NCBI GenBank assembly: GCA_021234155.1
Contig: JAJEKV010000003.1
Location: 27,077,166 to 27,141,165, forward strand
DNA length: 64,000 nt
Reading direction: 5' to 3'
Source: Isoetes taiwanensis
Taxonomy: Eukaryota > Streptophyta > Lycopodiopsida > Isoetales > Isoetaceae
Each line of letters begins with the position of its first letter. Within the stretch, counting starts at the first letter, position 1. The notes under the pieces are model-generated. The model was not told the DNA's origin. It saw only the letters and a program-made list of their open reading frames with translations, and did no database searches. Shown here one piece after another: positions 9,421-54,664 of the stretch. Both the position numbers and the translations under genes were made by a program.

Positions 9421-9424
9421 ATAA

Positions 9425-13300: not shown

Positions 13301-13862
13301 CCATGTCACCACTTTGAGTGCCTAGGTGGCATGCTTGAGCCTAGGTGGCATGCCTGAGCCACCTTTGCATGTTGGAACCTAGGTGGCATGTTGGAGCCAC
13401 GTGGCATATGGAGCCACATTGACATGTTTGAGCCTAGGTGGCATGTTAGAGCTTAGGTGGCATGTTTGAGCCACCTTGGCATGTTAGAGCCCACGTGGCA
13501 TGTTAGAGCCCACGTGGCATGTTGGAGTCCACGTGGCATGTTTGAGCCACCTTGGCATGTTGGAACCTAGGTGGCATGTTGGAGCCCACGTGGCATGTTT
13601 GAGCCACCTTGTCATGTCGGAGCCTAGGTGGCATGTCTGAGCCACCTTGGCATGCCTGAGCCACCTTGGCATGTTGGAGCCCACATAGCATGTTTGAGCC
13701 AACTTGGCATGTTGGAGCCCGCGTTGCATGTTTGAGCCACCTTGGCATGTTTGAGCCATCGTGGCATGTTTGAGCCTAGGTGGCATGTTGGTGCCTAGGT
13801 GGCATGTTCGAGCCACCTTGGCATGTTGGAGCCTAGGTTGCATGTTGGAGCCTGCGTGGTGC
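13300..13862. repeat. ~20 bp minisatellite, reversed block
   Basis: The same satellite as 9.4-10.3 kb but on the opposite strand: units read ggcatgtttgagccacctt and ggcatgttggagcctaggt. It meets the forward block at about 13,862 around gtggtgccacctagtc, making a large imperfect inverted repeat. Confidence 0.95.
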
Positions 13863-14760
13863 CACCTAGTCTCAAACACCTAGTCTCAAACATGCCACCT
13901 AGATTCCGACATGCCACCTAGGCTCAAACATGCCAAGGTGGCTCAAACATGCCACATGGGCTCCAACATGCCAAATAGACTCCAACATGCCAAGGTGGTT
14001 CAAACATGTCGAGGTGGCTCAAGTATACCACAAGGGCTCCAACATGCCACCTAGGCTCAAACATGCCAAGGTGGCTCAAACATGACACGCAGGCACCAAC
14101 ATGCCACCTAGGCTCCAACATGCCAAGGTGGCTCAAGCATGCCACCTAGGCTCCAACATGCCAAGGTGGCTCAAACATGACACCTAGGCTCCAACATGCC
14201 ACCTAGACTCCAACATGCCACCTAGGCTCCAACTTACCACCTAGGTTCAAATATGCCAAGGTGGCTCAAACATGCCACATGGGCCCAAACATGCCACTAG
14301 GCTTTAACATGCCAATGTGGCTCAAACATGCCAAGATGGCTCAAACACGCCACCCAGGCTCCAACATGCCACTTAGGCTCAAACATGCCACATGTGCTCC
14401 AACATGCCACATAGTCTCAAACATGCCAAGGTGGCTCAAACATGCCAAGATGGCTCAAACAAGCCACCTAGGCTCAAAACATGCCACCTTGGCTCCAACA
14501 TGCCACTTATCCAACATGCCACCTAGGCTCCAACATGCCAAGGTGGCTCAAACATGCCATGCAGGCTCCAACATGCCACCTAGGCTCAAACATGCCAAGA
14601 TGGCTCAAGCACGCCACCTAGGCTCCAACATGCCAAGATGGCTCAAACATGTCATCTAGACTCCAACATGCCACCTTGGCTTTAACATGCCACCTAGGCT
14701 CAAACATGCCAACGTGGCTCAAACATGCCATGTGGGCTCCAACATGCCACGTGGGCATGC
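13863..14760. repeat. ~20 bp minisatellite, second forward block
   Basis: Forward-orientation units (caacatgccacctaggctc type) run to about 14,760, where the array ends abruptly at ccacgtgggcatgcgcc. With the previous block it forms a head-to-head pair about 1.45 kb long. Confidence 0.95.
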
Positions 14761-28779: not shown

Positions 28780-29045
28780 GTGCATTTTGACGCCACATTT
28801 TTGTACCTTCTTTGTGGTAGAATCAGGTGGTACATAGAGAAGCAGAGATTGTGGGAGTGTGAAATAATGAGTGTCGGTTATTTTGAATTTTATGTCACGT
28901 CATTGTCCCTATTCTCAAATTAGAAAAATAATCACCTCTTCTTCTGTTTTTTTGCTGCTTTTTGCCGATTGAACCCTATGGATGCCATATTGTTCGATTT
29001 ATTTCTATCTCTGTGTTCGGCCTTGCTTTATGCTTCAAGCGTCTT
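28780..29045. other. No gene recognised
   Basis: Unique sequence between LINE copy A and the ~930 bp duplicated unit. Confidence 0.4.
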
Positions 29046-30274
29046 TGTTCTAAGCTATAGTTACCCACTATAGCTTATTACACCTCTCTTCTCGTTGGAA
29101 TTGCCCCATCTGTCTGGTTGCATCTTGGTGCTCGTTGCTCGTAGGATTCTTATTTTTGTTCATTCGTCCAATTGCGAGTTGTTCCTCTTACCTTTCGGAA
29201 TTCGAAAGCCAGTTTCTATGCCCCTCGCTTCCTCACTTCATTTCTCCTGCATTTTCAATCTAGCTCTATCTATTCGTTCGCTCGGTTTGGGATGTTTTCA
29301 GTTTGTAGTCCCTTGATGTCGTCTTCCACATGTGCCAGATAGTTCTATTTCACTTCTTGGGATTCGTTGTTCAAATCTCGATAGTTCTGTCTACTCCTTT
29401 ATATTGTTTCATTAGTCTCGGGGGCGTCTTATATGTTGTTGTTGTGCTTGAAAGTTCGCTTGGGACCATTATAACATTGGAATTTAGTTTCCCTCCCCCC
29501 CCCCCTTTTTTGGTACCTTGATTCTTCTATTTTGTTGTTCATGTGCTCTTTCTGGTCGTAGTTTGTTGTGTGTCCGGTGCTCATGTTTGTCTTTTACGCA
29601 TTTCATTTTGCTTCTTAGTCTCGGCTTTCTTATTTGTTAAAGCATGGTTGGTTCGCATCATCTTTAATCTGGTATCATCATGCCTCCATCTTCCCTCCCA
29701 TTATTGCTAGGTTTTGCATTCGATGACTAGTTTTTCATCGTCAATATTCTTATCTATTGTATCGCCTCGACTCCCTTGGATTCACCAATCTCATTCAGCT
29801 ATTGTTTCACCTTTGGCGCACCCTAGGTATTGGTTGCTCCTTGTATGTTTTTGACATCCTTTGTTTCTTTGTCACTCCCTACCAGGTCACTCCATTTCTA
29901 AGTCATTTCTTCATCACGCAATTTTCATAAGTTTTATAGTTGTTTCCCATGATGACTCTTTCCGCATTTATGCAACTAAGACAATAGTCTTCACTCCTTA
30001 GTTGCCCGCTATAGTTTATTACACCATTCTGCTCATCTGGATTGCTCCATTGATCTGTTTTCTTCTTGGCATTTTTTCCTTCATAGGATTATTAGTTTGT
30101 TCATTTGTCCAGTTGTGAGCTTGTTCCTCTTACCCTTCCATGTTCGGTAACAGGTTTCTATGCCCCATCCCTCCCCCCGAGTTTTTTCATTTCTCAAGTA
30201 TTTTCTATTTAGTGTTGTCTAGTCTCCACTTAGTTTGGGATTTTTCATCCAGTTGCTTCGCTCTATCTATGGTC

Positions 30275-31663
30275 CCCTAGACAATTGCTCTATGCAGATG
30301 ATGTAGACTTGCTATCCCATACAGCCAGGAGTATGCAGCAGCATTTGGACTCTCTTAGTGGGTTCTGTGACACAACAGGAATGACGGTGAACCTGCAGAA
30401 AACTAAGCTCCTGGCAGTCCTCTCCTCGCAGCATGATATTCCATATCTCTATTACAGAGGACAGAAGGTGGATGTTGTAAGGACCTTCAAGTATCTGGGA
30501 ATCGACTTTTGCGCTAGCATGTTATGGGATGACTGTGTGGAAAGACGGGTCAGGGATGGAAAGCCCTGTATGATGCTATGCGTAATAGCTGCTGAGAATA
30601 GACCTATGTGGACGGGCACGAGCACACCTGCTCGTGAAAGCTTTCGTTGAACCAAGATTGTTGTATGGGGTAGAGGTCCGGGGTCCGTAAATTAGCAAGA
30701 ACACCAGGATAAGCTAGAGAGGGTGCAAAAGGCCTTCTTAACATACGCCTAGGTATCAAGGACACGGTGCCTTATCGATTTTGCTATATGAGATCGGGTT
30801 TCGCCCCTGCAACATTCCGCTATGCGCAGACATCTTGCATATTTCCACAAGGTCACCAGCGTGGATGCACAACGTCTTCCCCCGAGGGCTTTGTTATTGG
30901 CACAAGAGCCACAACGACTCAAGAGGGTATGGCAGATAACCGCCGTGGGTGGTTCGCAACGTGGTCTATAGACTACCGCCAGATTGTGGCTATGCTCGAT
31001 GCCCGGGACAGCCGCGACACCTGAATGAGCGCTTTGCCACCACTCTGTGGGATGCAACCACTCGTGCAAAGCCTAAAACAGAGCACTACCACACGCAAGT
31101 TAATCCAACACTGGAACATGGCCCACACCAGTATTTGAAAGCGATATATCTATGAAGAAACGAGAGCTATTGCCTCCGCGGAGGACGGGTCCCATCATCT
31201 CGTAATTGAAACAGTCGTTGGGACTACGATGGAGGGCGAGAATCCCCGGCATGAGAGAATATGCCAGTGTTGCCACATGCGACAAGAGAGGATGAGCACC
31301 ATGCTCGCAAGAGTGTCCGGCATATATGCATATCCGAGCAACACATGCTGATCTTAGATGCTCTGAGGCACCGCTGCATCAATTGCTGGCATCGCCAATG
31401 GTTGCACGTCTCGCATCCTACATTTTGCAAGTCTCTACCGTTAGAGAATCCCTCGCAGGACAAGGGATCTGAGAGCCTACTACCAGGGTTTTTCCTCCCA
31501 TGTGGGGGTTTTTTCATCCCAGTAGTAGGGACACATTGTATAGTAGCATTTGTCTTTTTGGTGTGGTTTTATCTGCTTTGTGTACTGCATGTACCGTCTC
31601 ATAGGTCAAGTTTGGCCTCCGCGGACGTTAAAATATACTTCCTTCCTTTCCTTCCTTCCTAAT
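30275..31663 (+). mobile_element. LINE copy B, 5' truncated, plus strand
   Basis: It starts inside the RT: LLYADDVDLLSHTARSMQQ, then GMTVNLQKTKLLAVL and TFKYLGIDF (30285-30650). Beyond that, the C-terminal part is recognisable but frame-broken, with AFVEPRLLYGVEV (about 30,635-30,675) and a zinc-finger-like CQCC ... DEHHA (about 31,265-31,305). The 3' UTR has an 8 bp-stem hairpin (31476-31529). The end is ggcctccgcggacgttaaaa at 31,614-31,634 followed by a (cttcc)n tail. It interrupts the second copy of the ~930 bp duplication, which dates insertion after that duplication. Confidence 0.8.
31476..31529 (+). other. 3' UTR hairpin of LINE copy B
   Basis: Arms CCTACTAC (31476-31483) and GTAGTAGG (31522-31529) pair perfectly. 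The enclosed sequence has AGGGTTTTTCCTC and GGGGTTTTTTCATCCC, with cctccc and ggggg able to form an inner stem. The same two boxes occur inside a different stem in the DIRS-like element at 52.56-52.64 kb. Confidence 0.65.
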
Positions 31664-32456
31664 GTCATCTTCTGACAGTGCCGGATAATTCCATTCATTT
31701 CCTCCATATACTGTCCAGTCCTCTTTATATTGCTTCATTGGCCTCAGGGTCCCCGATGTAAGTTGTCTTGTATGTTGTTACTATTCTTGATAGTTCTTTT
31801 GGGTCCATTGTGCATGGATGATATATGTTGGAATTTAGTCTTTGATTTTCTCAGTATTTGTCATGCGAATTTTCGTTGTCGTTGTTAGTGCTTTGATTCT
31901 CCAGTATGGTTTCATGTGCTCCTTGTTGTGGTCATAGTTTGTGGCTTATGTTTGGTTTTTGCATCTAGATGTTGAAGCATTCCATTTGCCCCATTATTTT
32001 CGCTTTCTTTTTGTTAATCGTGGTTGGCTCGCATCATCTTTTTAAAGTTTGTATCATTTGTCTTCGTCTTCCTCCCACCATTCCTTGTTAGGTTTTGCAT
32101 TTGATGGCTGGTTTTTTCACCTTCAATATTCTCACATTTTGTCTCACTTCAGCTCCCTTTGGGTTCACCTATCTCATTCGGTAGTTGTTTCTTCTTTGGC
32201 ACGCCCACAATATCGGTTGCTCCTCGAATATTATTCTTTGTCGTTCTTTACCAGGGCACTTCAGTTCCAAGTCAGTTCTTCATCACACAATGGTCTTAGT
32301 TTCATAGTTGTTTCCCATGATATCTCTTTTCTGCATCTCCGCCGCTAAGAAATCACCAGCCCCCTTAGTGATTTTACTTGTTTTTGCTCATAGTTTTAGT
32401 TTGTGATTGGAGGAGGTAGGTTCCTCTTTGTATCAGGTGTTGTTGCTTTGCAAAGG

Positions 32457-32522
32457 ACCTTTCCCTAGAATGCCATGGTTCTCTTCTTATATAGAAGAGA
32501 ACCATCATTCTGGGAAAAGGGA
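32457..32522. other. Near-perfect foldback hairpin
   Basis: Inner arms ATGGTTCTCTTCT and AGAAGAGAACCAT are perfectly complementary around a 5 nt tatat loop. The outer arms (cctttccctagaatg and cattctgggaaaagg) extend the stem to about 30 bp with a few bulges. The stem is about the size of a small plant miRNA precursor core or a short foldback element. Confidence 0.65.
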
Positions 32523-32869
32523 TGCTAGTTTTGGCATCACGCCATTTTGGACGTCAAATCTATCTATAGCTTGAGCCTTCTATGGCGCAGGCTTTCTTTG
32601 GCTCTGTCTACTATATATCCATGTTGCTTGCTAGCATTCCTCATCGACATTTCCTCTGAGCTGACTTCTGTTTGTTCCAGAGTTTCCCTCCCTCCTCGCT
32701 CACGAAGTCTAGTCACTTAGGGCATCGCCTTTAACAACTGTTGTGGTCTCTTCGTTCCTCTAGTGAATTTTGGATCGACTCTTCTCTTTTATATCTTTGT
32801 GGTTGATGGGCTCTGCAATTTCGGTGTAGCACTTGTAAACTGTAGCACTTGAGACCCACCGGTGGGAGG

Positions 32870-35900: not shown

Positions 35901-36280
35901 TGGGGGCAGTCCATTCCCAGAACGATGCGGGAATGTAAAGTATGTGGTAGCGGTGATATAGAAGACGAGGAGCATGTTTTGATATGGTGTCCAGCGTACA
36001 AAATGATACGAGACCGTTTTGGAATAGAGGCAAGTGATCTAACGGCGTTTTTCCTACTCCAGGGTGATAGAATAGGGTCATATTTAATAGAAGTATTGCA
36101 CTATAGAGAGATATGTGTGCGCAATGTAAATACTCTCTTAAATGAAAATGATGATGAGAGTGAGAGTGAGGAGCTAGATGAGGAAACTGAAACTCATCTA
36201 CTTTTTTATGAAGATATGTAAAAGCATCGTCTTATAGGCCTGAGAGGCCTCCACAGACGTAATACATTTCATTTCATTTC

Positions 36281-40479: not shown

Positions 40480-41530
40480 GGTAGTCTATGGGTTTTTGTC
40501 ATCCCAATCTCCCAATGGCCTAACCACGTAGCCACTTGAGCCTATACTTGTTATACATCCTTGTATTATTTTTGAAAACATAGATGTTGATCATGGATAT
40601 ATGACAATAAGAAGGATCGGTGTGTGTCTACCGCCTTCAGATATGATCCCAGTACTATGGGTGGCACTGTTAACAATGAGTAAAAATCATGTGCTTGTAT
40701 ACCATAGCTCTCTCTTATATGTGCATAAGCCGAACATTGCAAGAGTGCATGACACTCATCTTCTACACTACCTGATGAACATAATTTGCAGATTCTTTCT
40801 TCAGCAGGGATCCTGAACCATCTCCCAGTTTCAATCTCCAATCTGTGTGAACTCGTTCTGTACCGGGCAATAATCTGCTTATGTGATCTGGAGATATCCG
40901 AATTTAGATATCCCTGACTTCTGTATTCTGTGAGATGATTAATATTCATCTTATACTGCATCATCCGACTGCCTGGATTCAACCATAAGCGTTCAAGTGC
41001 GAGCTTTTCCAAAAGGGCTCTTGCATCTGTTTTATCACTCGGTCAATTCAGATCTGACAGACCCCATTCACTCGCCCAGCTTCGTAAATCTTTCATCCAC
41101 CTTCTGGACGGATTCTATGTGACACCATAGCCTGGAGGATGTACCTGGACCCCAAATAGGCACGCCATACAGCAAGACTGTTTGAACCAAAGATTTAAAC
41201 AATGCTTTTTTCTAGGCCCCATTCAGTCAACGCAGCCTTATTGCATCTTGCAAGCATGCTATACAGTGCTGCTTTTCCTCCTGCAACCCTTCTCTTCACA
41301 CAGTCCTTCCAATTATATTTTGTCGAGAAATCAATGCCAAGGTACTTGTAGCACTCTACTGTCTCTAATTCCTGTTCTTGATAAGTGAATTTCGGTCTAT
41401 CCCTCGTTCCAAACACCATGATCTTGGATTTTGAAATGTTTACCTTCATTTGTTTTGCTGCACAAAATGATTCTAGGCTGTCCAAATGTTCCTGTAACAC
41501 AGTCTTCTTACTTGCTGTCAGCACCAAATA
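40480..41530 (-). mobile_element. LINE copy F, 5' truncated just after the YADD box, minus strand
   Basis: Minus-strand frames 41527-41195 (KTVLQEHLDSLESFCAAKQ, MKVNISKSKIMVFGTRD, ECYKYLGIDF) and 41012-40566 (SHRLEIETGRWFRIPAEE, ICKLCSSGSVEDECHALLQC, SYLKAVDTHR) correspond to the RT thumb and zinc-finger tail of copy C. About 180 bp between them is frame-broken. The minus-strand 3' end carries ggccattgggagattgggat and gacaaaaac at about 40,495, a diverged form of the family tail. Confidence 0.82.
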
Positions 41531-44474
41531 TAGTCAATCAAAAGACTGTGGTCTTTTTTATTGGACATGCATATGCAACATGTAGAACATTTATAATGTA
41601 TTTGATAGCATGTAAAAGTGTATTCATGCTTTCCTCTTTGGATTTGATGTCCTATGGTTACAGATGAACATAAAGATAAAGACATGTTAGGTTTAGGTGG
41701 GGGTAATTGTGTAGGGGTAAGGGATGCATACCCACATGGGGGTAATGTTTGGCATCGTGGCTTCATGCAATGTACATGGGGGTAATGTTGGGCATTGTAG
41801 TTCTATGCAATTATTAGATGTGAGTGGTGCAATGTATGCATGTTTGTAAAATTTTTTAAGGATAGTTGTAGGGGGATGTCAATGCAATTATTAGATGTGT
41901 GTGATGCAATATATGTATGTTTGTAAAAAAATTGTAAGGATAGTTGTAGAGGGATATCAAGATGGAAAATGAGCTCATGTCCATAAACATTATTGATGTT
42001 ATCCACCTTGCATTGTTTTTGCGCACACAAAAATGGAACTTGCACACACAAAATGGAAAATGCTTATAAATTGGAGAATTGATTTTCAAAGACCTAGAAA
42101 AATGATTTTGCAAATATCATGTTATATCCTAGATAATTGATCGAGAGAGAGATTGGAACTTGATGCAAAGGTAAAGCATCTTGCAAGAATATCTATGGGA
42201 AATCAATGTCATAAAAACGATGGCTTGTCTTAGCGGTGTTGAATTAGAAAGAACCTAGATATATTTGTATTGATTGATGATAGTATTACAAAAACCTTTG
42301 AAATGGTGGAATAAAACTATGGACATGTAAAGATGCTAGCACCCTCGCAAAAAAATTATCTAGGGCAGCAAGACAGTAAGAAAGGAGTATATCAATGCAA
42401 TGAACAACACCTTATGACTTCAGTAGATGTTGTTCGACAAATGATTGATCCTTGTAGGCCCATGTACTATTTCCAACATGGTTTAGAACTGTTGAGAATT
42501 CGAACTGCACCTTAATGAATCAGTGGCTTTAGTAGATGTTTTCTGATGATGATCCTTGTAGGCTTTGTCACGTGGTTTAGAACTGGTTGAAAATTCTAGA
42601 GCACTCAATGGTCCTGCAGCATTTATAGAACTGAGAAATCTACTTTCCTTGAGGCTTGCAAGTACAATTAAGATTGAAAGCTAAATTTACCGTGAGGAGC
42701 ATTTTCGTTCATAAGTTTTGGACCATACTGGATTCTACTTCTTCTCTGGATTCTGCTTCTGCTCTAGAGATACATTTGAAAATAAATGCCAATCGATAGA
42801 TATGTTCAGAGCATAAACAGAAATGTAGTTGTCATGCATCTAACACTAAGGTTAGTAAGAGAGACCTCACATTCGTATTCTGTCTATTGTATAGACAACG
42901 ATATTTTTCGGAAAGGAAACCTGTGTTTCAATCGAACATGCAAAGCCAGCTTTTCTACAAAAAACTACATAACCTTATCAATTAAATAATACTAAGTTGC
43001 TACATAGATCAAAAATCAAACATGAATCCTAAAGGGATTTAAGGAAGTTATGGAAAAATGAGAATTATGAAGAGAATGTTGTTCACCATGCTGACCCAAA
43101 AGAAATTTGACCTGTCAAAGCCAGACTTTGACACTCTACTCATGAGCTTGCTCATAGGCCTCAGACTTTAGACTCCTTGTAGCAGAGGGCAACCAAAGAA
43201 AGGGCCAGTCCTTTAAGATAAGCCAAAACGGGATGATTCGAAACATGGCACTTTTCACCGTTGTACTTGTTCTCTAGCTTACAGATTATAGATTATAGAA
43301 TGGATATGATGATGCATTGGCAATAGTTAAAATCATAAAATATCACCAACTGAAAGACCCATAATCGTTAGAAAGCATGGATATCTGATGTAGCTAGAAG
43401 CAAGTGCAGAGTATTACCTTTGATCCAAGAGTGAGATTTAAGAATAATATATGTATCCTTCATTCAATTGCCTTCCAACCTGTAGCCAATAAATTTTGTG
43501 TTAACTGAGGATGTACATGCCAATTGTAAAAGGTTGCAAGTCACAACCTGGCCATTCCGGGGATCCATTGAACATGGGCATTTGTGTTTCAAACTGCTCT
43601 ACATGTAGATGTGATGATTTTTGGGCTCTAGCATCACAATCAATGTACAAATGTAATTGCTAAAATGCTAAAAGATGCTAAAATTAAGAACCATGCTGAC
43701 CCAAAAGAAATTTGAACCCGTCAAAGCCAGACTTTGACACTCTGCTCATAGGCTTGCTCATAGGCCTCAGACTTTAGACTCGGTGTAGCAGAGGGCAACC
43801 AAGGAAAGGGCCAGTCCTTTAACGATTCGAAAGATGGCACTTTTCACTGTTGTACTTGTTCTCTAGCTTACAGATTATAGAATGGATATGATGATGCATT
43901 GGCAATAGTTAGAATCATAAAATATCACCAACTGAAAGACCCATAATCACTAAAAAGCATGGATATCTGATGTAGCTAGAAGCCCCCTCTATGGCACATA
44001 AGAATCCTTGAACAGTGACAATTGAAGAAGTTTGTACATGAAAATATTTATGACTTACATCTTTAGTGGGAAGCCTGAGAACCTCCACAACAATATAGAT
44101 AATCTGAAAGCACAAATGTCACATAATGTGCAAACAACAAAAAATTGGTGCAACTTTTAGACTAATTATTGGCAGAACTAAGTTGGCTGCCTCTCTGCCA
44201 AGTTATAAACATTAAAAGGAGAAATGATCTATGTGTATTATGTATGTATTAAAAATGTTAAAGCCCATGGATGGCCGATGCTATGCTAAGAACAGAGAAA
44301 CCTGGAAGTGCAAAAGGTCATAAGAGTAGAAATAGACTCAATCATGTAGTAGAGATATGCAATGTTGTCAATATTCAAGAAACACTAATAATATGCCGTC
44401 TAACTATAGAGTATCTTATCATGTTTCAAGTAAATATGGTTGGATGTATAAGAACCGGATTCTAATGTAATAAG
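41530..44474. other. Left flank of the DIRS-like element, no gene
   Basis: Holds small tandem duplications: catgggggtaatgttgggc repeats at 41,736-41,800; a ~65 bp unit with tgcaattattagatgtg at 41,808 and 41,883; and a ~115 bp duplication at 42,420-42,600. A minus-strand frame at 44115-43915 (VVEVLRLPTKD before a GT donor) could be a small exon, but I cannot identify it. Confidence 0.45.
43084..43985. repeat. ~300 bp direct duplication, ~605 bp apart
   Basis: The segment starting accatgctgacccaaaagaa (about 43,084-43,395) is repeated at about 43,690-43,985. Both contain gggccagtcctttaa, tggcacttttcac, atggatatgatgatgcattg and catggatatctgatgtagct. There are a few small indels between the copies. 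Confidence 0.9.
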
Positions 44475-44620
44475 ATGGCATCGATCCGAGCCGTCGGATC
44501 GGCATTCTGGGAAGGGGCGAGCTGCTATATGAGACGTCACTCCAGTTGTAGCAGGTTATCGGCGTTCTTCTCACAGCAGCAGCAGTTCTCCATCTTTGCC
44601 TTTGACTCCCTCCTCAAAGA
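44475..44620 (+). repeat. DIRS A1 terminal repeat
   Basis: About 146 bp, starting ATGGCATCGATCCGAGCCG. It matches A2 (51830-51975) with about a dozen differences. Many put A/T here where A2 has G/C, several of them at CpG sites. Confidence 0.92.
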
Positions 44621-45865
44621 TTCGCTTCACGCGATGCCGTTCTACTCAGCAGCGCTTCTTCCTCACATGGATCGAGATCCTTTTCTTCGAGAGCTAGCTG
44701 GGGTGGTTTTTCTCATCAGTCTGCTCGTCTTACTCTGGAAGGTATGGCCTCTTCTCCTCAATTGCCTGTCTGCACAGGTATAGCCCCTTTTTCGGTTGGT
44801 ATTTTTCCGCTTGTTGGCGGTTGTAGAATGATTCTTTTGATTGGTTTATGAGATGGGCTGTCAGGAAGCAACATGCAGATTGATTGGGTCGGGTCCCTCC
44901 GGATCCTGGTTTCTTTGGGGATTTGGTTTTCAGCTAGGTATGTGTTCATTTGGGAGATGGTGGTGGTTCGTCCAGTTTGTCTGATGCAACAAGCATGCTT
45001 TGTTTTTTGGGAAGAGATTTCATGGTTTGTTGGGGACATGCAGGTGCTTTTCCCGTTCGAGATCTAATCCATCTTAGCATATCTTAGCATGCAGGTTGCG
45101 ATTCAGGTCAGCCCTTTGGCCCCTGCCTCCCCCCTCTGATCATCGCTTGGGATTCTTGTGCAGGCAGGCCCCAGCTTCAGCCCAGATATGCTCGCCGTTC
45201 TCCCGGAGGGTCGATTTGCGACCGGCGCGGGGTTCTTTGTGCAAAATGCGCAGGGGACCTCGGTTGTTCAACCATTGGTCCAAGCACAGGCATCGGAAGA
45301 AGGAAAAAGGGGGAGGTCTAATTTCTCTCAGCTAGATGGGGGGCGGGGACAGGATCATAAGCGATCTTGGCGGCGGAGTTCGGCGATAGGGGGGGGGTGC
45401 TTAGCCACCGCCGCTCGCCTGAAGACGAGCTTCTCATGAGACGATCCAGGCGATTTTATTTGCCGATTTCCCTGCTGGTCGATTCAGCCTCTCTTCCTCG
45501 TTTGCCATCTCTGCGGCTAGTTTCAGATGAGTTTTTATTTGGATTATCTCTGATCTTTTTTCGATTTCATGGTTGACATTTGTTTTTATTTTTAGTACTC
45601 GCTTATTGGTTCTTCTTTAGCTTTCACTACATGCATGGTTATGTTTAGGCTTAGCTTATCGCTGGTCTAATTTGGGCATGCATGGTGGGCGTTCCTTGCA
45701 TTAGGCTGGTTTGCGGTCGGTTTTCATTATGCTTATTTTATGGATGGTTGTTTTGGGTTGATTTATCCTCACCAATGTTTATTGAAAGCTTAATTGTAAA
45801 TTTGGTCTTAGGTTTGTTTTTGCCCAACCCTTTTTTTTAAGCCCCTTTCTTTCTCCTCTCATGCA

Positions 45866-46372
45866 TTGCTCCTACTTTTTCCCCCGGCTTGCTTTCTCCG
45901 CTCTCATAGTAAACCTTTGCTGTTCGATATGGCTTTTGGTTGTCCTTGTTGTTCTACGGATCTGGGCTCTGTTGGAGTTTTCTCAACCCCTTCATCACCC
46001 CCCATGGTTGACATGGCGCGACATCATCTTTACACGGAGCACTTGGAGGTGCTTCACCCTCTGCGAGCGGTTTTTGATGGGGAGCGAGAGGACATCGACC
46101 GCCAGCCGAAGTTTTTCCGATCATTATACCTTTATGCCTCCTTGTCTCCGGGCGCGGCGAAAGTGTTTCGGCTTTTCGGCGTGGATTCTCATCGCCATCG
46201 CTTTCTTGGCGATGTCATTCTACAATGGGGGCTTTTAGTCCCTCGAGCCACTTTCTCTCAAGGAGATTCTTTACATCCTCAAGGCCCGCCCACCCCATTT
46301 TCTTCCCATATACCCGTTAGGCATGGGGTGGTGTGGCGTGATTCCTTTGAGGTTGGGTTGTGGTTTTTGTAA
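45866..46372 (+). CDS. Possible accessory ORF in the DIRS leader
   Basis: A 168-codon open frame; a better start may be the internal ATG at about 45,929 (MAFGCPCCSTDLGSVG). The body is soluble-looking and balanced in composition: MARHHLYTEHLEVLHPLRA, EREDIDRQPKFFRSLYLYA, GAAKVFRLFGVDSHRH. This differs from the T-rich non-coding leader around it. I recognise no family. It could be an extra gene of this DIRS lineage or a 5' exon spliced onto a later ORF. A GT at 46369 overlaps its stop codon, but its phase does not fit the Gag acceptor. Confidence 0.4.
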   Translation: MLLLFPPACFLRSHSKPLLFDMAFGCPCCSTDLGSVGVFSTPSSPPMVDMARHHLYTEHLEVLHPLRAVFDGEREDIDRQPKFFRSLYLYASLSPGAAKVFRLFGVDSHRHRFLGDVILQWGLLVPRATFSQGDSLHPQGPPTPFSSHIPVRHGVVWRDSFEVGLWFL

Positions 46373-46439
46373 TAATCGGCATATCCGCCGTTCTAAGGAA
46401 TAAGGGGGCAAAACCCCATTTGATTTTTTGTGCTATGTC

Positions 46440-47165
46440 TAAACTCTTTAGTTGTTTATCTGTGTTGGTAATGTTATGGATGGCTTAGTGCTTTAGGCGT
46501 TTTATAAGTTCCAATCGTATTTTTAGGTATGGCTAGATTAAATTCTCATGGGGGGATCGGGTGGCATTCTTATTTCACTTATGTGTATTTTTTGTAGACT
46601 TTAAATTCCTTTTTATGTTTCCTTTTTCAAAGTAGTGCTATGGTTGTTTTTTTTGCATCCGCCATATGTGCTAAGGGGTTGAAATTCTTGCATCATTATC
46701 TTAGATGGTTTCTTATTAAGTCTTGCATACTTCATGATTCTTACTTGGGGGGGGAGGCTAAGGTTAGCATGCATCCGGTTTTTCCCAATTATGTCTCAAC
46801 TCTTTGGTGGTTGTATTTGTGTTTTTAACGTTGTGGATGGCTCATTGCTTTAGGCATTTTCCTATTATAAGTTCCTTCAGTATCTCTTCTATTTTGGCTA
46901 GACTAACTTCTCATGGGGGCCTAGGGTGGCATTCTTATTTTCGGCTATGCGTAATTTTCGTAGACTTACATTTCATGTTTTTCCCTTTCAAGTTTGGTAT
47001 TATGATTGTTTGGCATCCGACATATATAAGGGTTGATGGTTTTTGGTTTTGATGGGGGCGAAGTTCTTAATCCTTATTCTAATGGTTTTATTATTAGTTT
47101 TGTAGATTTCATGATTTTACTTTTAGGGGTGAGGCTTCCGGTCTTAGTTTTCTTTGCACCCGGAG
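46440..47165. repeat. ~365 bp tandem duplication in the DIRS leader
   Basis: Parallel marks in both halves: tggatggct(t/c)a(g/t)tgctttaggc, ctagattaaattctcatggg against ctagactaacttctcatggg, gggtggcattcttatttt/c, gcatccg(c/a)catat. Non-coding, T-rich. Confidence 0.75.
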
Positions 47166-47499
47166 GGGGTACTTACAAAATATGTTTGTGGAAAGGGGGT
47201 ATAGGCCCATCTAACATTGATATGCATTGGCAACAATGGTACTTATTTTTGGTCAGGCTACCTATGGGGATGATGTCATTCATTATAGTCTGTTTTTTTG
47301 CATAGCTTTTTCTATTCGTCTTGTGGTTTGTATTGTCTTCCCAGAAGGTTGCTCTCATCCTAACTATGTTGGCTTTTTATCTTGTGCTGTTTTCGGGGGG
47401 GGGAGGACCAAGAAATGGTACTTTGGTGTTTCTTTTCTTTGTGGCCCAAGGTTTTAGGGGTTTTTTCGCTGTTGTGTCCATAGGCTTCGTGTACATATC

Positions 47500-48672
47500 A
47501 TGGGGGCTTATGGGGTCGTGGACGATGCCTTTTCCTCTTTTCCACCTCGTTTCATGCCGCAGTTTTTTCTTTCGTATCTATTCTTACGTGTTCCTCGTTT
47601 GCAGGTTATTGAGCTCATCCCTTCCGCTTCCGGAACCACGGCTTCTACCTCGTCCGGATCTCTTTCCCCCCAACGTCTAGCTCGGGCTGCGGGTGCACGT
47701 CGTCAGCGAGAAGCCTCTCTTTCTCCTGACACGGATTCAGGGGAGCCTGCCTCGGTTTCCCCCCCGTCATCACCCTCCACCACTTTTTCCTTTTGGCCCT
47801 CATCTGCCTTTGCGTCACCTTCTTCCCTTTCTCCATCTGGGGTTGCTTCCCCCTTGTTCTCTCCCCATATGGCTCCGCTTTTTTCATCCACTCCACCTCT
47901 TTTTTCGGCCCCTTCTCCTCCCTCTGCCTCTTCTCCTTTTGATTATACCCAGCTGTTGTACGAGCTCCAACAACAGAGGGCTACTTTGCAGGAGCTTCAG
48001 TCTTCGGTTACACAGCAGCTCTCCGTCCGTACGCAACTTGAACACCTTCAGCAGGATATACGAGAGAGAGCTGCTCGACCGATGCCGACTTTTGAACGCG
48101 ACTCCTTACGACATTATTACGAGTTCGCGTCGGCTATGGACACCAGGTTTCACTGGATCTATGGACGGCTCGCCATGTTGGGGACGGCTATTCCGGAGGA
48201 CGTGCTGCACATGGTGGAAGAAGGTAAACGTTTGGCGGACCAAGAGATGAAATTTGTTTTGATTGCCGACCAACACGGCCACGATGTTGCCCTTCAGTTT
48301 AGTGAGTCCCCCTGTCTTCAGTTTTCTTCTGATGAATCTAAACGACTGCAACAGGCCAAAAAGTTTGCCCATGAGAAACGTCTATCCCGTTCGCGTTCTT
48401 CTCCTTATCCTGCCCCTCCCGTTTTATCCCCTTCTTCGCCCTCCACTGCCAACCCATCCTCTCTTCGCTGTACTTTCTGCGGCCGTTTTCGCCATACCGC
48501 TGAAAACTGTTTTCGTCGACTTTTTTCTCACAATGCAGTTCCCCCCATGTCTCCACCTTTTTCTCCACCTTTTTCTCAGACTGCACCGCTTGCTCCCTCT
48601 CCTTTGTTGACTCTATCTCCTCAATCACCCCAACCCCCTTTGCCTCCGTCATCTCCATCCTGGTCTTCGTAA
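47500..48672 (+). CDS. DIRS Gag-like protein with CCHC zinc knuckle
   Basis: 390 codons from the ATG at 47500. A splice-acceptor-like tcgtttgcag ends at 47604 in phase with VIELIPSASGTTAS, so the true N-terminus may come from an upstream exon. Residues about 60-150 are Ser/Pro-rich and low complexity. A helical, coiled-coil-prone region follows (LLYELQQQRATLQELQSSV, LSVRTQLEHLQQDIRER), then a conserved-looking core (FERDSLRHYYEFASAMDTR, MKFVLIADQHGHDVAL). The zinc knuckle is C324-x2-C327-x4-H332-x4-C337. The role is packaging of element RNA, inferred from position and the knuckle. An AATAAA lies 55 bp after the stop. Confidence 0.75.
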   Translation: MGAYGVVDDAFSSFPPRFMPQFFLSYLFLRVPRLQVIELIPSASGTTASTSSGSLSPQRLARAAGARRQREASLSPDTDSGEPASVSPPSSPSTTFSFWPSSAFASPSSLSPSGVASPLFSPHMAPLFSSTPPLFSAPSPPSASSPFDYTQLLYELQQQRATLQELQSSVTQQLSVRTQLEHLQQDIRERAARPMPTFERDSLRHYYEFASAMDTRFHWIYGRLAMLGTAIPEDVLHMVEEGKRLADQEMKFVLIADQHGHDVALQFSESPCLQFSSDESKRLQQAKKFAHEKRLSRSRSSPYPAPPVLSPSSPSTANPSSLRCTFCGRFRHTAENCFRRLFSHNAVPPMSPPFSPPFSQTAPLAPSPLLTLSPQSPQPPLPPSSPSWSS

Positions 48673-48751
48673 TGTCCGCCAAGTGCATTTTTAGTGTCTC
48701 CTGATGTAATTATGGTTTGTGTCATCAATAAAAAAGCGTGCTTAATTTGAT

Positions 48752-50734
48752 GTGTTATCTTTTTCTGCAGATTGCCAAGTTTTCGCCTCTCCCTTGCCTC
48801 ATTTCCCCTTTGACCCTACCGCCCTTGATACCCACTATGCTACTTTGTCTGTCCGCGGCCGCCTCTCTGCTTGTTTACCATTTTGGCACTCTATTTCCGC
48901 GAACCCCCTTGTTATTTCTTGGATTCAGCCTGGTTACCCCCTTCCTTGGGCACACGGGCCCCCTTCCCAACCATTTTTCCGTCCCAACCTTTCGTCGCTG
49001 TCCTCCCAACTCCCATTTGCCCGCTCCGCTATTCGTGACCTTCTGCTTACAGGAGCAATCATGCAAGTTCCTGACCGCCCTTTCTTTTGTTCTCCCTTGG
49101 GAGTCGTCCCCAAGGGGGCCCACAAGTTTCGCCTTATTCTTGATTTGCGTCACCTTAATTCTTTCTTATCTGTCCCATCCTTCCGTTACGAGTCCCTTTC
49201 TGATGCCTTGTCATTACTTCAACCTCTCGATTTTCTTTTTACTCTGGATTTAAAGTCGGGCTATCATCATGTTCCTATCTGGCCCCCACACCATACCTTC
49301 TTGGGTTTCCAACTCGACGGCTTATTTTATGTATTTACAATGCTCCCCTTTGGTCTTGCATCCGCCCCCTTTGTTTTTACCAAACTTATGCGCCCCTTAG
49401 TTCGTCACTGGCGTGCTGCCGGTGTCCGCTGCACTCCTTACATGGACGATTTTCTTTTCTTGACCCAACGTGAACCTGTCGCCCTCCAATATCGTATCAT
49501 TTCTGATCTGCAACATGCCGGTTTTCTTATTGCATGGCCTAAATGTCGTCTCCAGATTTCCCATCGCACAATTTTCCTTGGGTTCCTCCTTGACTCTTCT
49601 TCTATGATTATTTGTTTGTCGTCCAAGAAGTTAGAAAAATTTTTCCAGCTTTCCTCATCTATTCTCTCTTCCTCTCGTTTGACTTCTCGCCATCTTGCTA
49701 GATTCCTTGGTTTTCTGCAATCTCTCCGCATCGTTTTCGGTTCCTTGGTCTCTTCCCTCACCTTTTTCTCTTATCTTCTCATACAGCCTTTTTTCTGGGA
49801 TGCCCCTATTTCATTATCATCGTTAGCCCGCATGGAAATTTTGCTCTGGGAATCTGTCGCCCGCTCTCTCTGTTTTCGCCCTATTTCTCCTCTCCGTCGG
49901 CCGTCCGCTGTTTTAGGTTTTGATGCTAGCGCTTTTGGTTGGGGGGGTTGGTTGCTTCTGCCTGGCCAAAACCGTGTTGATTTTATGGGTCTTTTTTCTG
50001 CAGCTGAATCTGCCCAGTCATCCACATGGCGTGAGCTTTTTGCTTTTTTCCTGGTCCTACGGTCGGCTTTACCTTTTATCCATTCCCGGCTGGTCACGGT
50101 CCGCGGGGATAATTTAAACGTCGCCTCCATTCTTCAGAAGGGTGGTTCCGCTTCTCCCGATATTCACCTCCTGGCTTTGGAAATTTTTCTTCTGTGTTTC
50201 CATTGTGCTATTTCTGTAGAGCCGGTTTGGATTCCCCGCTCCCAGAACGAATGGGCAGATTACCTTTCCCGGTTGCCTCAGTCCGATGAGTTTGCCCTCG
50301 CGCCATGGTGTTTCCAGCATATTGATTCTGTATGGGGCCCGCATCATGTTGACCGTTTTGCTTCACCTATTAATCACAAACTCCCCGTTTTTAACACCCG
50401 GTTTGCATATCCCCATCGTATCCCGCCAGACGCCTTCACCTATGATTGGCACATCTTTAATAATTACTGTTTTCCCCCTCCGGCTATGATTCCCCGTGTC
50501 TTGCACCATGCGGCGGCTTGTCGCGCTCAGATGACTTTGGTGGTTTTATATTGGCCCTCAGCCCCCTGGTGGCCTCTTCTATGCAATGGCGAGTCATGGG
50601 CACCTTTTATTGTGGATGTATTATTTTTTGATGCTTTTTCTCATGCTTTGTTGCCAAGTTTGTCAACCTCATTTACGGGGTGTCGACGTCATGTAGCTAT
50701 TTATGTTCTTCGCTGTCACTTTAATACGGAATAA
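48752..50734 (+). CDS. DIRS reverse transcriptase-RNase H
   Basis: One open frame of 661 codons with no ATG until about residue 104; the listed first codon is GTG. A strong acceptor-like tttttctgcag ends at 48770, so the protein probably begins on a spliced upstream exon. RT boxes: LLTGAIMQVPDRPFFCSPLG, KFRLILDLRHLN, FLFTLDLKSGYHHVPI (first Asp), MLPFGLASAPFVFTKLM, and YMDD at 230-233. RNase H D391 (LGFDASAFGWGG), E428 (TWRELFAF), D453 (VRGDNLNV) and D503 (NEWADYLSRL) are all present. The tail (VDRFASPINHKLPVFNTRF, VVLYWPSAPWWPLLC) is the extension characteristic of DIRS and Ngaro polymerases. It makes cDNA from element RNA, probably self-primed from the repeats. Catalytically complete. Confidence 0.93.
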   Translation: MLSFSADCQVFASPLPHFPFDPTALDTHYATLSVRGRLSACLPFWHSISANPLVISWIQPGYPLPWAHGPPSQPFFRPNLSSLSSQLPFARSAIRDLLLTGAIMQVPDRPFFCSPLGVVPKGAHKFRLILDLRHLNSFLSVPSFRYESLSDALSLLQPLDFLFTLDLKSGYHHVPIWPPHHTFLGFQLDGLFYVFTMLPFGLASAPFVFTKLMRPLVRHWRAAGVRCTPYMDDFLFLTQREPVALQYRIISDLQHAGFLIAWPKCRLQISHRTIFLGFLLDSSSMIICLSSKKLEKFFQLSSSILSSSRLTSRHLARFLGFLQSLRIVFGSLVSSLTFFSYLLIQPFFWDAPISLSSLARMEILLWESVARSLCFRPISPLRRPSAVLGFDASAFGWGGWLLLPGQNRVDFMGLFSAAESAQSSTWRELFAFFLVLRSALPFIHSRLVTVRGDNLNVASILQKGGSASPDIHLLALEIFLLCFHCAISVEPVWIPRSQNEWADYLSRLPQSDEFALAPWCFQHIDSVWGPHHVDRFASPINHKLPVFNTRFAYPHRIPPDAFTYDWHIFNNYCFPPPAMIPRVLHHAAACRAQMTLVVLYWPSAPWWPLLCNGESWAPFIVDVLFFDAFSHALLPSLSTSFTGCRRHVAIYVLRCHFNTE

Positions 50735-51771
50735 TATTTGGATTCTCTTGGTTTATTTCGTCGTCAATTTAATGTGGATTAACGAGTGCATTCTTTCTTT
50801 TGTGGCAGCTGCTTCGCGCTTAATTCCTCCTGCTCACATTCCTCTATTCTTTTCTTCGCTCCCCTTAGTTTTTTCATCCCGCGCCCCTTCTACCATCTCT
50901 GCCTATGTTGCTATGTTTCGGCGTTTTGTACTCTGGTGCCGCTCACACTCTATATCTTATCTCCCTGCTTCCCCTTTCGCTGTCGCGGCGTTTTTTGCTT
51001 CTCTCCACCAACCGGATATGTCTTCCTCCCCGGTCGCCACAGCCTCGGCTGCGATATCCTTTTTTCATCAGCTTTTCAATCTTCCCTCGCCCTCGGTTCT
51101 CCCCTTGCCATCTTTAGCTCGTCACGCCGCATCTCGTCATGCCCGCCCTCCTCGCACTTTTTTGCCTCTTCTTCCCCATCACGTGCGTTCCATCGTACTC
51201 CAGTTTGCGCCCCCTACGGCCGCCTTTTCGTCCCTAGCTCGGGCCGCCCTCATTCTCCTTTCCTTCGCGGCTTTTTTGCGCATCTCCGAGGCCCTGGCTT
51301 TGAATTGGCACGACTTATCCTTCTCTCCTGCCCACGTCGAGATTTTTATCCGTCGGTCCAAGAGAGATCAGCTTGCCAGGGGCCACACCATTTCGCTAGC
51401 TCGTTTGCCCTCCCTCGCCTGCCCGGTCACTATTCTTCAACGTCTTATTTCGTCCGGTCGCTACCCTCTCTTGGACCCTCCTCGGCGGCCCCTTTCGCCA
51501 GCGCTAACCCCGAAGTCCTCGCGCTCTATCTATCGGCGCATTTCGTTCTTGGTGGCGGCGGTGTTTGCTCCTTGATCGGCTTAGACCAGCTTCGGTATGG
51601 GACACATTCCGCATTCGTCGTGGGGCGCTTCGCTGGCGACATCTCGAGGGGTTTCTCCGGACGCTGCGGCTTCAGCGCTACCGCGGACGATGGCGTTCGG
51701 CCGTCACTCTCGCTATGTCTTTGCATGACTCGAGTCATCACACGGAGGTCTCCAGCAGCTTGGGCCTTTAG
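50703..51771 (+). pseudogene. DIRS tyrosine recombinase, C-terminal part out of frame
   Basis: The ORF at 50703-51575 overlaps the end of RT-RNase H. An acceptor-like ctttcttttgtggcag ends at 50808, after which AASRLIPPAHIPLFFSSLP starts the SAM-like core-binding domain (STISAYVAMFRRFVLWCRS). The catalytic domain has R193 in FLRISEALALNWHD and K220 in RRSKRDQLARGH. The frame stops at 51575 before the HxxR and Tyr boxes. In the next frame (51565-51771) FRIRRGALRW and RYRGRWRSAVTLAM look like the missing R-box and GRW region, while HS of the motif lies in the third frame. I could not place the nucleophilic Tyr. Either one or two small indels killed it or a splice/frameshift is used. It performs circle integration in this family. 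Confidence 0.8.
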
Positions 51772-51791
51772 ATTCGAAGTTCTCTGGCTGG

Positions 51792-51824
51792 TCGGCCGGT
51801 TTGGTGTGCATTGCGAGTCCCTTA
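51792..51824 (+). repeat. DIRS B1 repeat (33 bp)
   Basis: Identical to B2 (52771-52803) over 33 bp, starting tcggccggtttggtgtgc and ending gagtccctta. It is followed by CGAGA and the start of A2. Confidence 0.95.
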
Positions 51825-51829
51825 CGAGA

Positions 51830-51975
51830 ATGGCATCGTCCGAGCCGCCGGATCGGCGATTCAGGGAAGGGGCGGCTGCTATATGAGGCGTCACTCCGGT
51901 TGTAGCGGGTTATCGGCGTTCTTCTCCGCAGCGGCCAGCGAGTTCTCCATCTTTGCCTTTGACTCCCTCCTCACA
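51830..51975 (+). repeat. DIRS A2 internal repeat
   Basis: Second copy of A1, immediately after B1 plus 5 bp. The B1-A2 unit is the internal template that restores the ends during circle formation in split-direct-repeat DIRS elements. Confidence 0.92.
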
Positions 51976-52079
51976 GCCCATAGGTTGTTCCCGGGTTTTG
52001 TTACATTGTTTTGTTTCATTTAAGTTGTTGTTACACTGCGGGTGCATGTTATTTTCCACCTTTGGAGGTCATGCGAACT

Positions 52080-52300
52080 TTATATATCTATTTTATCTGG
52101 TCCACCCCGTGGTGTCTTGGCTAGCGATATATATATGTATTTTTTCATTTGGTCCACCCATGGGGTGATCTTATTTTTTTCATGTCTACATATATCTATT
52201 TTTATCCGGTCCACCCTCGGTGATGATTTGTTGCTTATATATCTATATGTATATTTTTTCATCCGGACCACCCTTGGGGTGATCTTATTTCTTTGTTTCA
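52080..52300. repeat. ~60 bp imperfect tandem repeat in the DIRS 3' region
   Basis: Four units, each with tatatatctat or similar, then (t/c)ggtccaccc and ggtgatctt or ggtgatgatt. Non-coding. Confidence 0.75.
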
Positions 52301-52555
52301 TGTTGTTATGGTGTTATTCCAGTAGGTTGATCCACCTTCAGGCGATGCGGGTTTATTAGATTTGTCACCACATGATCTACTCCACACCAGGTCCTTTTGC
52401 ACAGGTGGGTTGGTTCCATCGGATATTTTTTGGGTCTAACCTATGACGGGTGCTTGCTTATGGTTTTCTTTCAGGTCCTTAGACATCTCGCACTCAAGTC
52501 CGTGATCCAGCTCTAGCGTGCTCCTTGGCTATGGTTGCAGGCAGCTTATGAGGGG

Positions 52556-52636
52556 GTGGTGACGGTTTCTCATTAGGGTTTTCCTCGAAAACCCGAAAGG
52601 GCGGGGTTTTTCATCCCGATGAGAAGGTGTCACCAC
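52556..52636 (+). other. Long 3' UTR hairpin of the DIRS-like element
   Basis: GTGGTGAC (52556-52563) pairs with GTCACCAC (52629-52636), and TTCTCAT (52567-52573) pairs with ATGAGAA (52619-52625), separated by a small internal loop. Inside, aaaaccc and ggggtttt form a further stem. The boxes AGGGTTTTCCTC and GGGGTTTTTCATCCC are nearly identical to those in LINE B. Confidence 0.75.
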
Positions 52637-52770
52637 TAGCCTCGTCTTGTCTTGCCTATGTATTATATTTATGAGGGGGGCTCGACGTTGTTCCTATGGT
52701 CAGCCCCCCACTGACTACATTTTTTGAACTGCTGTAAACTGCTGCTGTGATGAATGAAAAGCCCTATCTA

Positions 52771-52803
52771 TCGGCCGGTTTGGTGTGCATTGCGAGTCCC
52801 TTA
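52771..52803 (+). repeat. DIRS B2 terminal repeat (33 bp)
   Basis: Exact copy of B1 that forms the right end; it is followed by ATAAG, the same 5 bp found immediately outside the left end. Confidence 0.95.
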
Positions 52804-54470
52804 ATAAGATGACAAAGTTTATGACCTTATTCTATTCCAACCCAGACTTAAGGAAGAGCAAAACAATAGATATTACTTGTCATGAATGCTGACAATACTT
52901 GTAGTTCAGCCCAAGAGCTTGATATCTTGCCTAATATCTGTCAATCACTGTAAATTAACGTTGAAAACTCACCTTCTTCACTGTTTGAACAAAATCAGCT
53001 TTGCAAAAAGGAAAAAACTTACAAAGGCCCGAAATACTGTAGATTATTCATGCAGTCATGGCATGTACATGCCAAAAGGGAAAAATACATCACAACAAAA
53101 AAAATCTCTCCAAAAATCGTGCCCTTCACAAAGCCTTAATTTTAGCCCTGAGCTTGCAGAACAAAGCTACTTCAGATACCTAGAAATGCTTTAATTTCTT
53201 AGTTTACCACATCTGTAGCAATATTCTTGTTGAAATCTTGCAATTTATTTGGAAATAGACTTACATCTCATACTTTTTCACTTGCACCAGGATAATAAAG
53301 CCCCGTTGTAAATATTATTCATTGTTGTCATCTTGTAATCTGCCTTGAGAAGTTATGAAATCTTGCAAGAGAATGTGGGCTAGGTATAGAGATGAACTTA
53401 TACAGCCAAGAATCGTGTTTACCATGATCAATCAATAAACAAATACAATTACCTCAGAATCTCATAGTACTGAAAGCCGATGGAACTCCAAGCCACCAAA
53501 AGCAGCCCTCCTCCAGAGCAACATGACAATGAACTTTTTGTTAATCGAAGCTTCAATACCTATCTGCAAGATGAAATACCATAGCCTGAGATGTCGCTCA
53601 GATGCATATGTGGCTTGTAACTTAAACCTCGCAATACAGAGGCTATGTTCATGAATCAAAGGGGTCCCAAAGTGATGGATCGGCTCCCAAATGCCCTGCT
53701 CAAAAACATAAAAAATAAATGTTTCTAAATTTTTGGAAGAACGGTAATATTTCCCGGCGACTAAAACATCAACAATCTTAGGAAATCACACAAAAATAAA
53801 TTCCAAAAAACCTTTTCACCAGACCGGAAATTTTCAAATTAACAAGATTGATTAGCCAACTCGGAGCTGCCACCTGGCCCAAATCGATTGGGCAAGGGAG
53901 AGTTACTAACTTGGGACCCAAATTGGGGTTTTGCACCCCCATTTGCCCCAATTCGAATTGGGGGAGGTTGGTGGTGGAGGAGCTGCTGTTCCACCATGTT
54001 CCAGCCGGAAGGATGGAGCACCCGAGCGATAGTGGACCTAGCTATGATCCCGGTTAGTACGTAGATAGCTTGGATTCCTAGATATTCATAGGACTGACCC
54101 TTGTATGCTTATCATTGGTCGTGTTCCTTTTATGGATCACTCCCCCAGATCATGACACATGCTCTGTAATACGTAGTGAGTCCTTGTGTTAGAACCCCCA
54201 CAACAATGTCAGCACTTTATTAATCCCGGGTACAAACCTTGGTATCATTTTGTGTCAAACTTCACCGCCTATATGGCTATGAGTACCCCACGCCTGTCAA
54301 ATTGACAGCAGTCTACCCTCTTTTGGACTTGTTTTCCCGTACATTCCAATGGCCTCCAACCATTGTTGACTAGTCACCCCCTTCTAGGCTATCTAGATCG
54401 CGTTGGGGCGAAGTCTTTCCAACTATTATTTTAGTGCCTAAACATCATTAAGTTCCGCAAATGAACTTAC
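52804..54470. other. Right flank of the DIRS-like element, no gene named
   Basis: A minus-strand open stretch at 53659-53462 (RHLRLWYFILQIGIEASI) ends near a GT donor at about 53,453 and could be an exon. The stretch at 53,830-54,055 is open on both strands with Pro/Gly-rich minus translation. I recognise neither. Confidence 0.35.
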
Positions 54471-54489
54471 ATATTCCAAGGGATTATGT

Positions 54490-54664
54490 GAAGATCCTAG
54501 GGGACCGTACCACCCAAAGACCCCTCAAGATAGGCCTCCTCTATTACGAGACCTTGTGTTCAAGTCTCTGCGGGTCCGGCATATGTCCTCATGGACGCTG
54601 CCAATGTGGCATGACATATAAATGCTATCTACCTATCTATCTATTTATTGAAAAAAAAAAAAGT
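54490..54664 (+). repeat. Possible SINE with poly(A)
   Basis: A B-box-like tgttcaagtctc (about 54,559-54,570) is followed by ~75 bp, then a ctatctacctatctatctat run and twelve A residues ending at about 54,662. The A box is unclear. Confidence 0.35.

Follow-up and report, generated by a model that had tools for sequence, protein, structure and literature searches.

Evidence for a PAT-like tyrosine-recombinase retrotransposon resident in the genome of the lycophyte Isoetes taiwanensis

Does the nuclear genome of a vascular plant house retrotransposons of the DIRS order, which encode a tyrosine recombinase (YR)? The question is raised by an 8,329-bp unit found in a stretch of 64,000 nucleotides of Isoetes taiwanensis DNA, hereafter the window, corresponding to positions 27077166-27141165 (27.08-27.14 Mb) of a 34,656,710-base scaffold (C1034). 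A first-pass annotation made from the letters alone had taken this unit for a DIRS-type element in a land plant. The identification is borne out, PAT-like being the better name, and we put at about 0.93 the probability that a PAT-like (DIRS-order) retrotransposon is resident in the nuclear genome of this species. The reading is carried by the split direct repeats and coding order of the window copy, by sister copies of the same layout on many scaffolds, and by the sequences found at the integration junctions.

Repeats and coding frames of the window copy

The components of the window copy (Table 1) follow each other in the order A1 - ORF1 - Gag (CCHC) - RT-RNase H-(Dam-like) - recombinase - B1A2 - B2, where ORF denotes an open reading frame and RT the reverse transcriptase. 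The limits proposed at first, 44475-52803, are exact, both ends being confirmed by the A1/A2 and B1/B2 alignments, and the same alignments bear out the claim that split direct repeats, A1/B1-A2/B2, are contained in one 8.3 kb unit. Inverted repeats of at least 25 bases were not detected in the 43000-54500 interval, and the repeat search gave no pair of long terminal repeats (LTRs) at the window copy. Direct split repeats, together with the failure to find inverted repeats of that size, make the anatomy PAT-type and not DIRS1-type. Scans of the window for tRNA genes and Rfam families gave no match. Eight mismatches over 143 A1/A2 sites set the age of the copy at about 4.5 million years, a rough figure which presumes that A1 equalled A2 at insertion and uses a rate cited in a Ceratopteris paper, 6.5e-9 per site per year (PMC6890710). 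Some A1/A2 differences resemble CpG to CpA changes in A1; the CpG observed/expected ratio is 0.83 in the element and 0.49 in the rest of the window.

Table 1. Coordinates of the element, its parts and a decayed relative in the window
Feature	Position	Strand	Basis or remark
PAT-like tyrosine-recombinase retrotransposon, whole copy	44475..52803	+	split direct repeats at both ends; same layout in sister copies
Left junction bases TAATAAGAT	44468..44476		same bases at right end
Terminal repeat A1	44475..44619	+	against A2: 135 matches, 8 mismatches, 6 gap columns
ORF1, extra conserved frame with CxxC motif	45812..46369	+	homologues in 10/20 sister loci; dN/dS among sisters
Gag with CCHC knuckle CTFCGRFRHTAENC	47458..48669	+	CX2CX4HX4C in 20/21 copies
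RT - RNase H - Dam-like domain	48746..50731	+	open frame, 662 aa
Tyrosine recombinase, N-terminal part and box I Arg/Lys	50697..51572	+	Phage_integrase 0.0013 (below cut-off); frame broken afterwards
Recombinase C-terminus remnant (HxxR, Tyr region), mixed frames	51573..51725	+	three-frame translation against intact sisters
Internal repeat B1	51792..51824	+	33/33 identical to B2
B1/A2 junction CGAGA	51825..51829	+	contains, together with the next AT, the AAT core
Internal repeat A2	51830..51976	+	aligned to A1
Terminal repeat B2	52771..52803	+	33/33 identical to B1
Right junction bases TAATAAGAT	52802..52810		same bases at left end
Decayed, rearranged DIRS remains of another subfamily, separate from the window copy	28800..32700	+	RT profile 2.4e-8 and 4.5e-4

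The Gag and RT-RNase H frames recognized at first sight hold up. The CTFCGRFRHTAENC knuckle is present in the frame 47458-48669; the RT-RNase H frame is open, and matches the Pfam domains RVT_1 (E 9.7e-15) and RVT_3 (4.7e-4, slightly below the curated cut-off). RVT_1 was matched in 13/13 and RVT_3 in 11/13 family members (E up to 0.1). The C-terminal piece of the window RT-RNase H has its best Pfam match, a weak one, to Dam (0.037, below the curated cut-off).

The recombinase had been listed as one of the parts of the element, and this stands only for its first half. The N-terminal domain and box I are present, but the frame is interrupted after 51572 by a stop at 51573 and a second one shortly after, and the GTHSA, RRG and ASLATSRG motifs are spread over three frames; full catalytic sets are found in seven sister copies. 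The interruption precedes the HxxR/Tyr half of the active site, and the window copy is therefore not autonomous; judging from its frames, it would be unable to supply its own recombinase, complete enzymes being predicted in sister copies. Both the break and ORF1 had been overlooked in the first-pass annotation. Searched as a single sequence, the window recombinase found no match in the PDB and a weak integrase match only in PHROGs; a structure prediction of this protein alone was poor (predicted local distance difference test score, pLDDT, 42.5) and was not used.

Sister recombinases were more informative. Twelve sequences, picked from 21 loci for their long frames, were aligned, and in seven (L010, L011, L019, L020, L022, L024 and L025, the latter with the N-terminal part in another frame) we recognize the full catalytic set, which we take to be box I Arg, Lys, HxxR, the second His and Tyr. 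Phage_integrase was matched by all eight recombinases of a family alignment (E up to 0.1, best 6.8e-10), which also matches Cre-type chains in the PDB (best E 5.9e-7). No ALOG domain was matched in the N-terminus of these eight proteins (E up to 0.1).

ORF1 starts near the CxxC motif, and its C-terminal part is frame-shifted in the window copy relative to the sisters. The ratio of nonsynonymous to synonymous divergence (dN/dS) is 0.07-0.31 in 19 of the 21 pairs formed by seven sisters, two pairs being saturated, as are all seven pairs involving the window copy; ORF1 is thus under purifying selection in the subfamily of the window copy, where its homologues occur. At the threshold used, the other subfamily yielded no ORF1 homologue, and neither Pfam nor the PDB gave a convincing relative: a ZFAND2 zinc finger match, found in one of seven members at 0.0045, and three weak PDB rows (best 0.31) were both judged uninformative.

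Sister copies and integration junctions

The family was monitored in the 1,658,258,908 bases (1110 contigs) of the genome. The window RT has at least 72 matched stretches (E up to 0.001) on many scaffolds, the window itself and several pieces of one copy included; the figure is a lower bound, because 67 of 9361 first-look candidates were scored. Stop-free stretches are 55-83% identical to the window RT. Twenty sister loci were picked by hand from the 72 matches, mostly among the top-scoring ones, and all were chosen for the RT. In 20/20 loci the RT is followed, on the same strand, by the recombinase; Gag is found upstream in 19/20 (all but L023), and ORF1 is present in half of them (10/20). 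The A repeat was found in 17/20, A and B together in 14/20. RT-RNase H forms one stop-free frame in 13/21 copies, the window copy counted.

Copies sharing the B1-A2 junction of the window, which the first-pass annotation had suggested looking for, do exist within the Isoetes genome. With window positions 51780-51990 as query, matches were obtained for all 40 candidates scored, out of 437; among them, at least 13 pairs of an A1 and a B1A2 hit are spaced by about 7.2-7.4 kb, the pair of the window included. In one such pair (C985) the upstream match also covers most of B1.

Signs of both recent and prolonged activity were observed. A1 and A2 are identical in L011 (127/127), L012 (114/114) and L021 (160/160). 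Over 12 RT frames, dN/dS is 0.05-0.34 in 33 of 66 pairs, and synonymous divergence (dS) is saturated in the other 33; by this measure, the RT is under purifying selection. Decayed relatives also occur, one of them about 12 kb from the window copy, with RT pieces at approximately 29.7 and 32.1 kb. The junction region of L020 matches a junction-like stretch of this relative (32402-32695) at 82% identity (E 1.8e-76), and the recombinase profile found nothing in the window outside the element. Tyrosine-recombinase retrotransposons are thus widespread, and have been recently mobile, in this lycophyte genome.

The host had been called a land plant in the first-pass annotation, and the scaffold agrees. 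The LEAFY family (PF01698), not known outside streptophytes, has four matches in the genome, one of which is on the scaffold of the window, and none in 14 control genomes; the presence of copies on many scaffolds points the same way.

A single AAT joins B1 to A2 inside the element. At the genomic ends, AAT precedes A1 in 12/16 copies, the exceptions being GAT (window copy, L010 and L014) and GTT (L012), and follows B2 in 17/19, the exceptions being GAT (window copy) and AAC (one copy). Several rows of the junction table were read by eye, including L014, L015 and the right ends of the window copy, L021, L024, L026 and L027; L018 was omitted, its arrangement being unclear, and of five further copies both ends could be read in one and only the right end in three, C1061 being unreadable. 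Because AAT is single inside and present at both genomic ends, the target must contribute one of the two, as would be expected of a recombinase that exchanges a short core.

Further variation was observed at the B end. In 3/19 right ends (window copy, L021 and L024) the last B2 bases are replaced by those found to the left of A1, namely ATAA before GAT in the window copy, TTGCCAAT in L021 and AGTCTCAAAG in L024; L026 and L027 retain B2 up to the core. No clear example of the reverse case, a changed A end, was met among the copies read. In L020 (TAG) and L028 (AG) the last 2-3 bases left of AAT match the B end, and this may be due to chance. We conjecture that the one-sided replacement would arise if a gap at the B end of a cDNA circle were filled in from the target strand. 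ATAAG, which flanks the window copy, was considered as an ordinary target-site duplication and set aside, because 16/19 right ends lack one. The target bases left of A1 in L024 (AGTCTCAAAG) are very similar to the element's own B end (AGTCTCCCAAG), which may signal target choice.

These features can be accommodated in the cycle known for PAT and DIRS elements. RNA would span the element from A1 to near B2, and would be copied by RT-RNase H; the internal B1A2 block would serve as the template joining the two cDNA ends, to give a circle in which the ends meet at a single B-AAT-A junction. This junction would then be exchanged by the tyrosine recombinase with a genomic AAT, leaving a copy flanked by AAT on both sides.

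RT placement and competing explanations

An RT tree was built from 12 Isoetes copies, one DIRS-type reference (L032), 12 host RTs, yeast Ty3 and two long interspersed nuclear elements (LINEs) of the window; the L014 copy, a mixed-frame stretch, was excluded. The 12 host RTs are named Ty3/gypsy because they match the yeast Ty3 RT at 44-49%. The 12 Isoetes copies and L032 fall on one side (94/99), and the 13 Ty3/gypsy RTs apart (83/85). The element RT thus lies outside the Ty3/gypsy and LINE groups; a place inside either would, by the first-pass annotation, have spoken against its proposal.

L032 is a 5,841-bp contig (JAJDDB010000011.1) of a metagenome-assembled genome (MAG) labelled Phycisphaerales bacterium OFTM33 in GTDB. 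It features inverted terminal repeats of 90 nt with 99% complementarity, an internal complementary region and RT-RNase H, in addition to a Gag-like frame and a recombinase, the latter two labels being assigned by eye. It is most likely a complete DIRS1-type element contaminating that MAG from a eukaryote, and a eukaryotic origin is very likely since a DIRS1-type retrotransposon with inverted repeats makes up the contig. Viral contigs scanned with the RT, the GYHHVP pattern and two alignments revealed no DIRS relative; genome contigs revealed none by pattern and one, L032, by alignment. No named PAT, Kangaroo, Ngaro or VIPER sequence turned up in these contig scans.

A number of points weigh against a resident PAT-like element moving as outlined. 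L032 is the sole DIRS-type reference and has a long branch, and the tree program warned of long branches meeting; both the DIRS and the Ty3/gypsy branch are below the 95/80 mark of the program. The L032 recombinase gave no significant match to the Isoetes profile. Dam was matched in 4/13 family members only, at best weakly (0.0055). Four of 16 left cores are other than AAT, and the replaced B ends (3/19) are unpredicted by a plain 3-bp model. Finally, the RNA, the circle and the strand exchange would follow from the known PAT/DIRS model by analogy.

Among the alternatives, the one that survives best leaves the nature of the element unchanged and supposes one or more recent horizontal arrivals into Isoetes in place of long residence. 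Three copies with identical A1/A2 and the high CpG of the element speak for it. Yet decayed copies exist, and the families are dS-saturated against each other while under purifying selection, although the divergence may have preceded arrival. On balance, we regard recent arrival as unlikely.

A second possibility concerns the type, Ngaro or VIPER (split direct repeats, no methyltransferase domain) instead of PAT. According to PMC4157794 and PMC6681497, both have the same A1-B1A2-B2 layout, and the weak Dam-like match would suit them. Nonetheless, no Pfam domain matches the C-terminal piece better than Dam, which is matched in four of 13 members, and the RT joins L032, a bearer of DIRS1-type inverted repeats; a Ngaro or VIPER assignment is accordingly quite improbable.

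Far less credit can be given to the idea that the element came to stand beside plant genes through a chimeric assembly or through contamination by a contig of algal, fungal or protist origin. The plants were grown non-axenically and the assembly needed contaminant cleaning, as stated in PMC8566536, and the CpG observed/expected ratio of the element, 0.83, exceeds the 0.49 of the rest of the window. The RT stretches, at least 72 on many scaffolds, and the 13 repeat pairs of the same family do not fit such an origin, nor do the identical target bases on both sides of the window copy, the decayed relative in the window and the LEAFY-family gene on the same 34.66-Mb scaffold. Contamination or chimerism, of which the first-pass annotation had warned, cannot explain the family, and is already refuted at the family level.

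That a degraded Ty3/gypsy LTR element was mistaken for a DIRS element, as the top PDB sequence match of the RT (yeast Ty3 RT, E 2.1e-17) might suggest, is hardly credible in view of the lack of an LTR pair, of the lack of any Pfam integrase or protease in the four frames scanned, of the tyrosine recombinase found downstream of the RT in all 20 sister loci, and of the position of the RT outside the host's own Ty3/gypsy RTs.

The resident PAT-like element may have a wider meaning. Tentatively, and with doubt slightly outweighing belief, we suggest that tyrosine-recombinase retrotransposons are native to, and long resident in, land plants: lycophyte families, dS-saturated under purifying selection, would have gained ORF1, moved until recently, and integrated at AAT, target bases being copied now and then into the B end, a feature not known from existing models. 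With a PAT-like lineage that is complete, recently active and made up of several families, a vascular plant joins the hosts of the DIRS order, whose range is extended across a major branch. Plants are thereby provided with living tyrosine recombinases. This is relevant to the proposal that the plant ALOG regulators arose from an element of this kind, no complete version having been known in streptophytes as of 2012 (PMC3537659), although the Isoetes copies are non-ALOG. The Isoetes alignments may be used as queries for other lycophyte, fern and bryophyte genomes.

Known systems, earlier reports and other contents of the window

The vascular-plant host, the conserved extra ORF and the replaced B ends are new; the element type is already known. 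Echinoderm Pat1-like elements carry a forward recombinase, with the B1A2 block after it. As described in PMC4157794, they share with the Isoetes element the split direct repeats, the Gag zinc finger, and the RT-RNase H and YR genes, and carry a methyltransferase domain to which the weak Dam-like match may correspond; in this comparison, made by description, the Isoetes element differs in its vascular-plant host and, in one subfamily, in the extra ORF1 and a long leader before Gag. Kangaroo/TOC elements of green algae belong to the same PAT group, and have split direct repeats and a green-lineage host (PMC3266345 and PMC4157794). The recombinase is inverted in Kangaroo (PMC4157794), forward in the Isoetes element.

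The DIRS1-like L032 has Gag, RT-RNase H and YR genes in common with the Isoetes element, with an RT 29% identical (tblastn E 7e-71, relative to candidate stretches), but features inverted terminal repeats and an internal complementary region where direct split repeats are found here. Host Ty3/gypsy elements share RT and RNase H ancestry, and have integrase-bearing frames (recognized by eye), in contrast to the split repeats, tyrosine recombinase and separate RT group of the Isoetes family. Cryptons have a recombinase without reverse transcriptase, which is present here, and ALOG-type DIRS elements (Ectocarpus, marine animals) differ as no ALOG match was found in the Isoetes recombinases.

Earlier reports are in line with a new host. 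According to a recent review of land-plant transposons, green algae are the only plants known to have elements of this type; chlorophytes have PAT-like families, and DIRS1-like elements had not been described in plants (PMC3266345). The word DIRS is missing from the main texts of the I. taiwanensis (PMC8566536) and I. sinensis (PMC10541799) genome papers, and the literature searched, subscription papers and Repbase excluded, gave no account of a land plant with a complete DIRS/PAT element. A Ceratopteris repeat table lists 361 DIRS pieces, 45,453 bp in total (PMC6890710), and a Lycium paper gives a 'Gypsy/DIRS1' figure (PMC11963026), which looks like a repeat-masking label and not a DIRS report.

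The remainder of the window hosts diverse sequences. Pieces of non-LTR retrotransposons lie at 33193-36218 and 27327-27836, with RT matched at both and an endonuclease domain at 33193; the 40569-41533 region resembles such pieces by eye only. DNA-transposon remains were noted at 1468-4460 and 6137-6493, where two long frames are hAT-like by eye, with no Pfam match at 0.01; a DDE_Tnp_4 match slightly below its cut-off is included in these remains. A likely host gene with a WW domain, probably made up by several exons, is found on the minus strand at 22073-23911 (WW match in 23195-23911), and arrays of a 19-bp minisatellite unit, oriented both ways, extend over 9424-10305 and 13320-14750.

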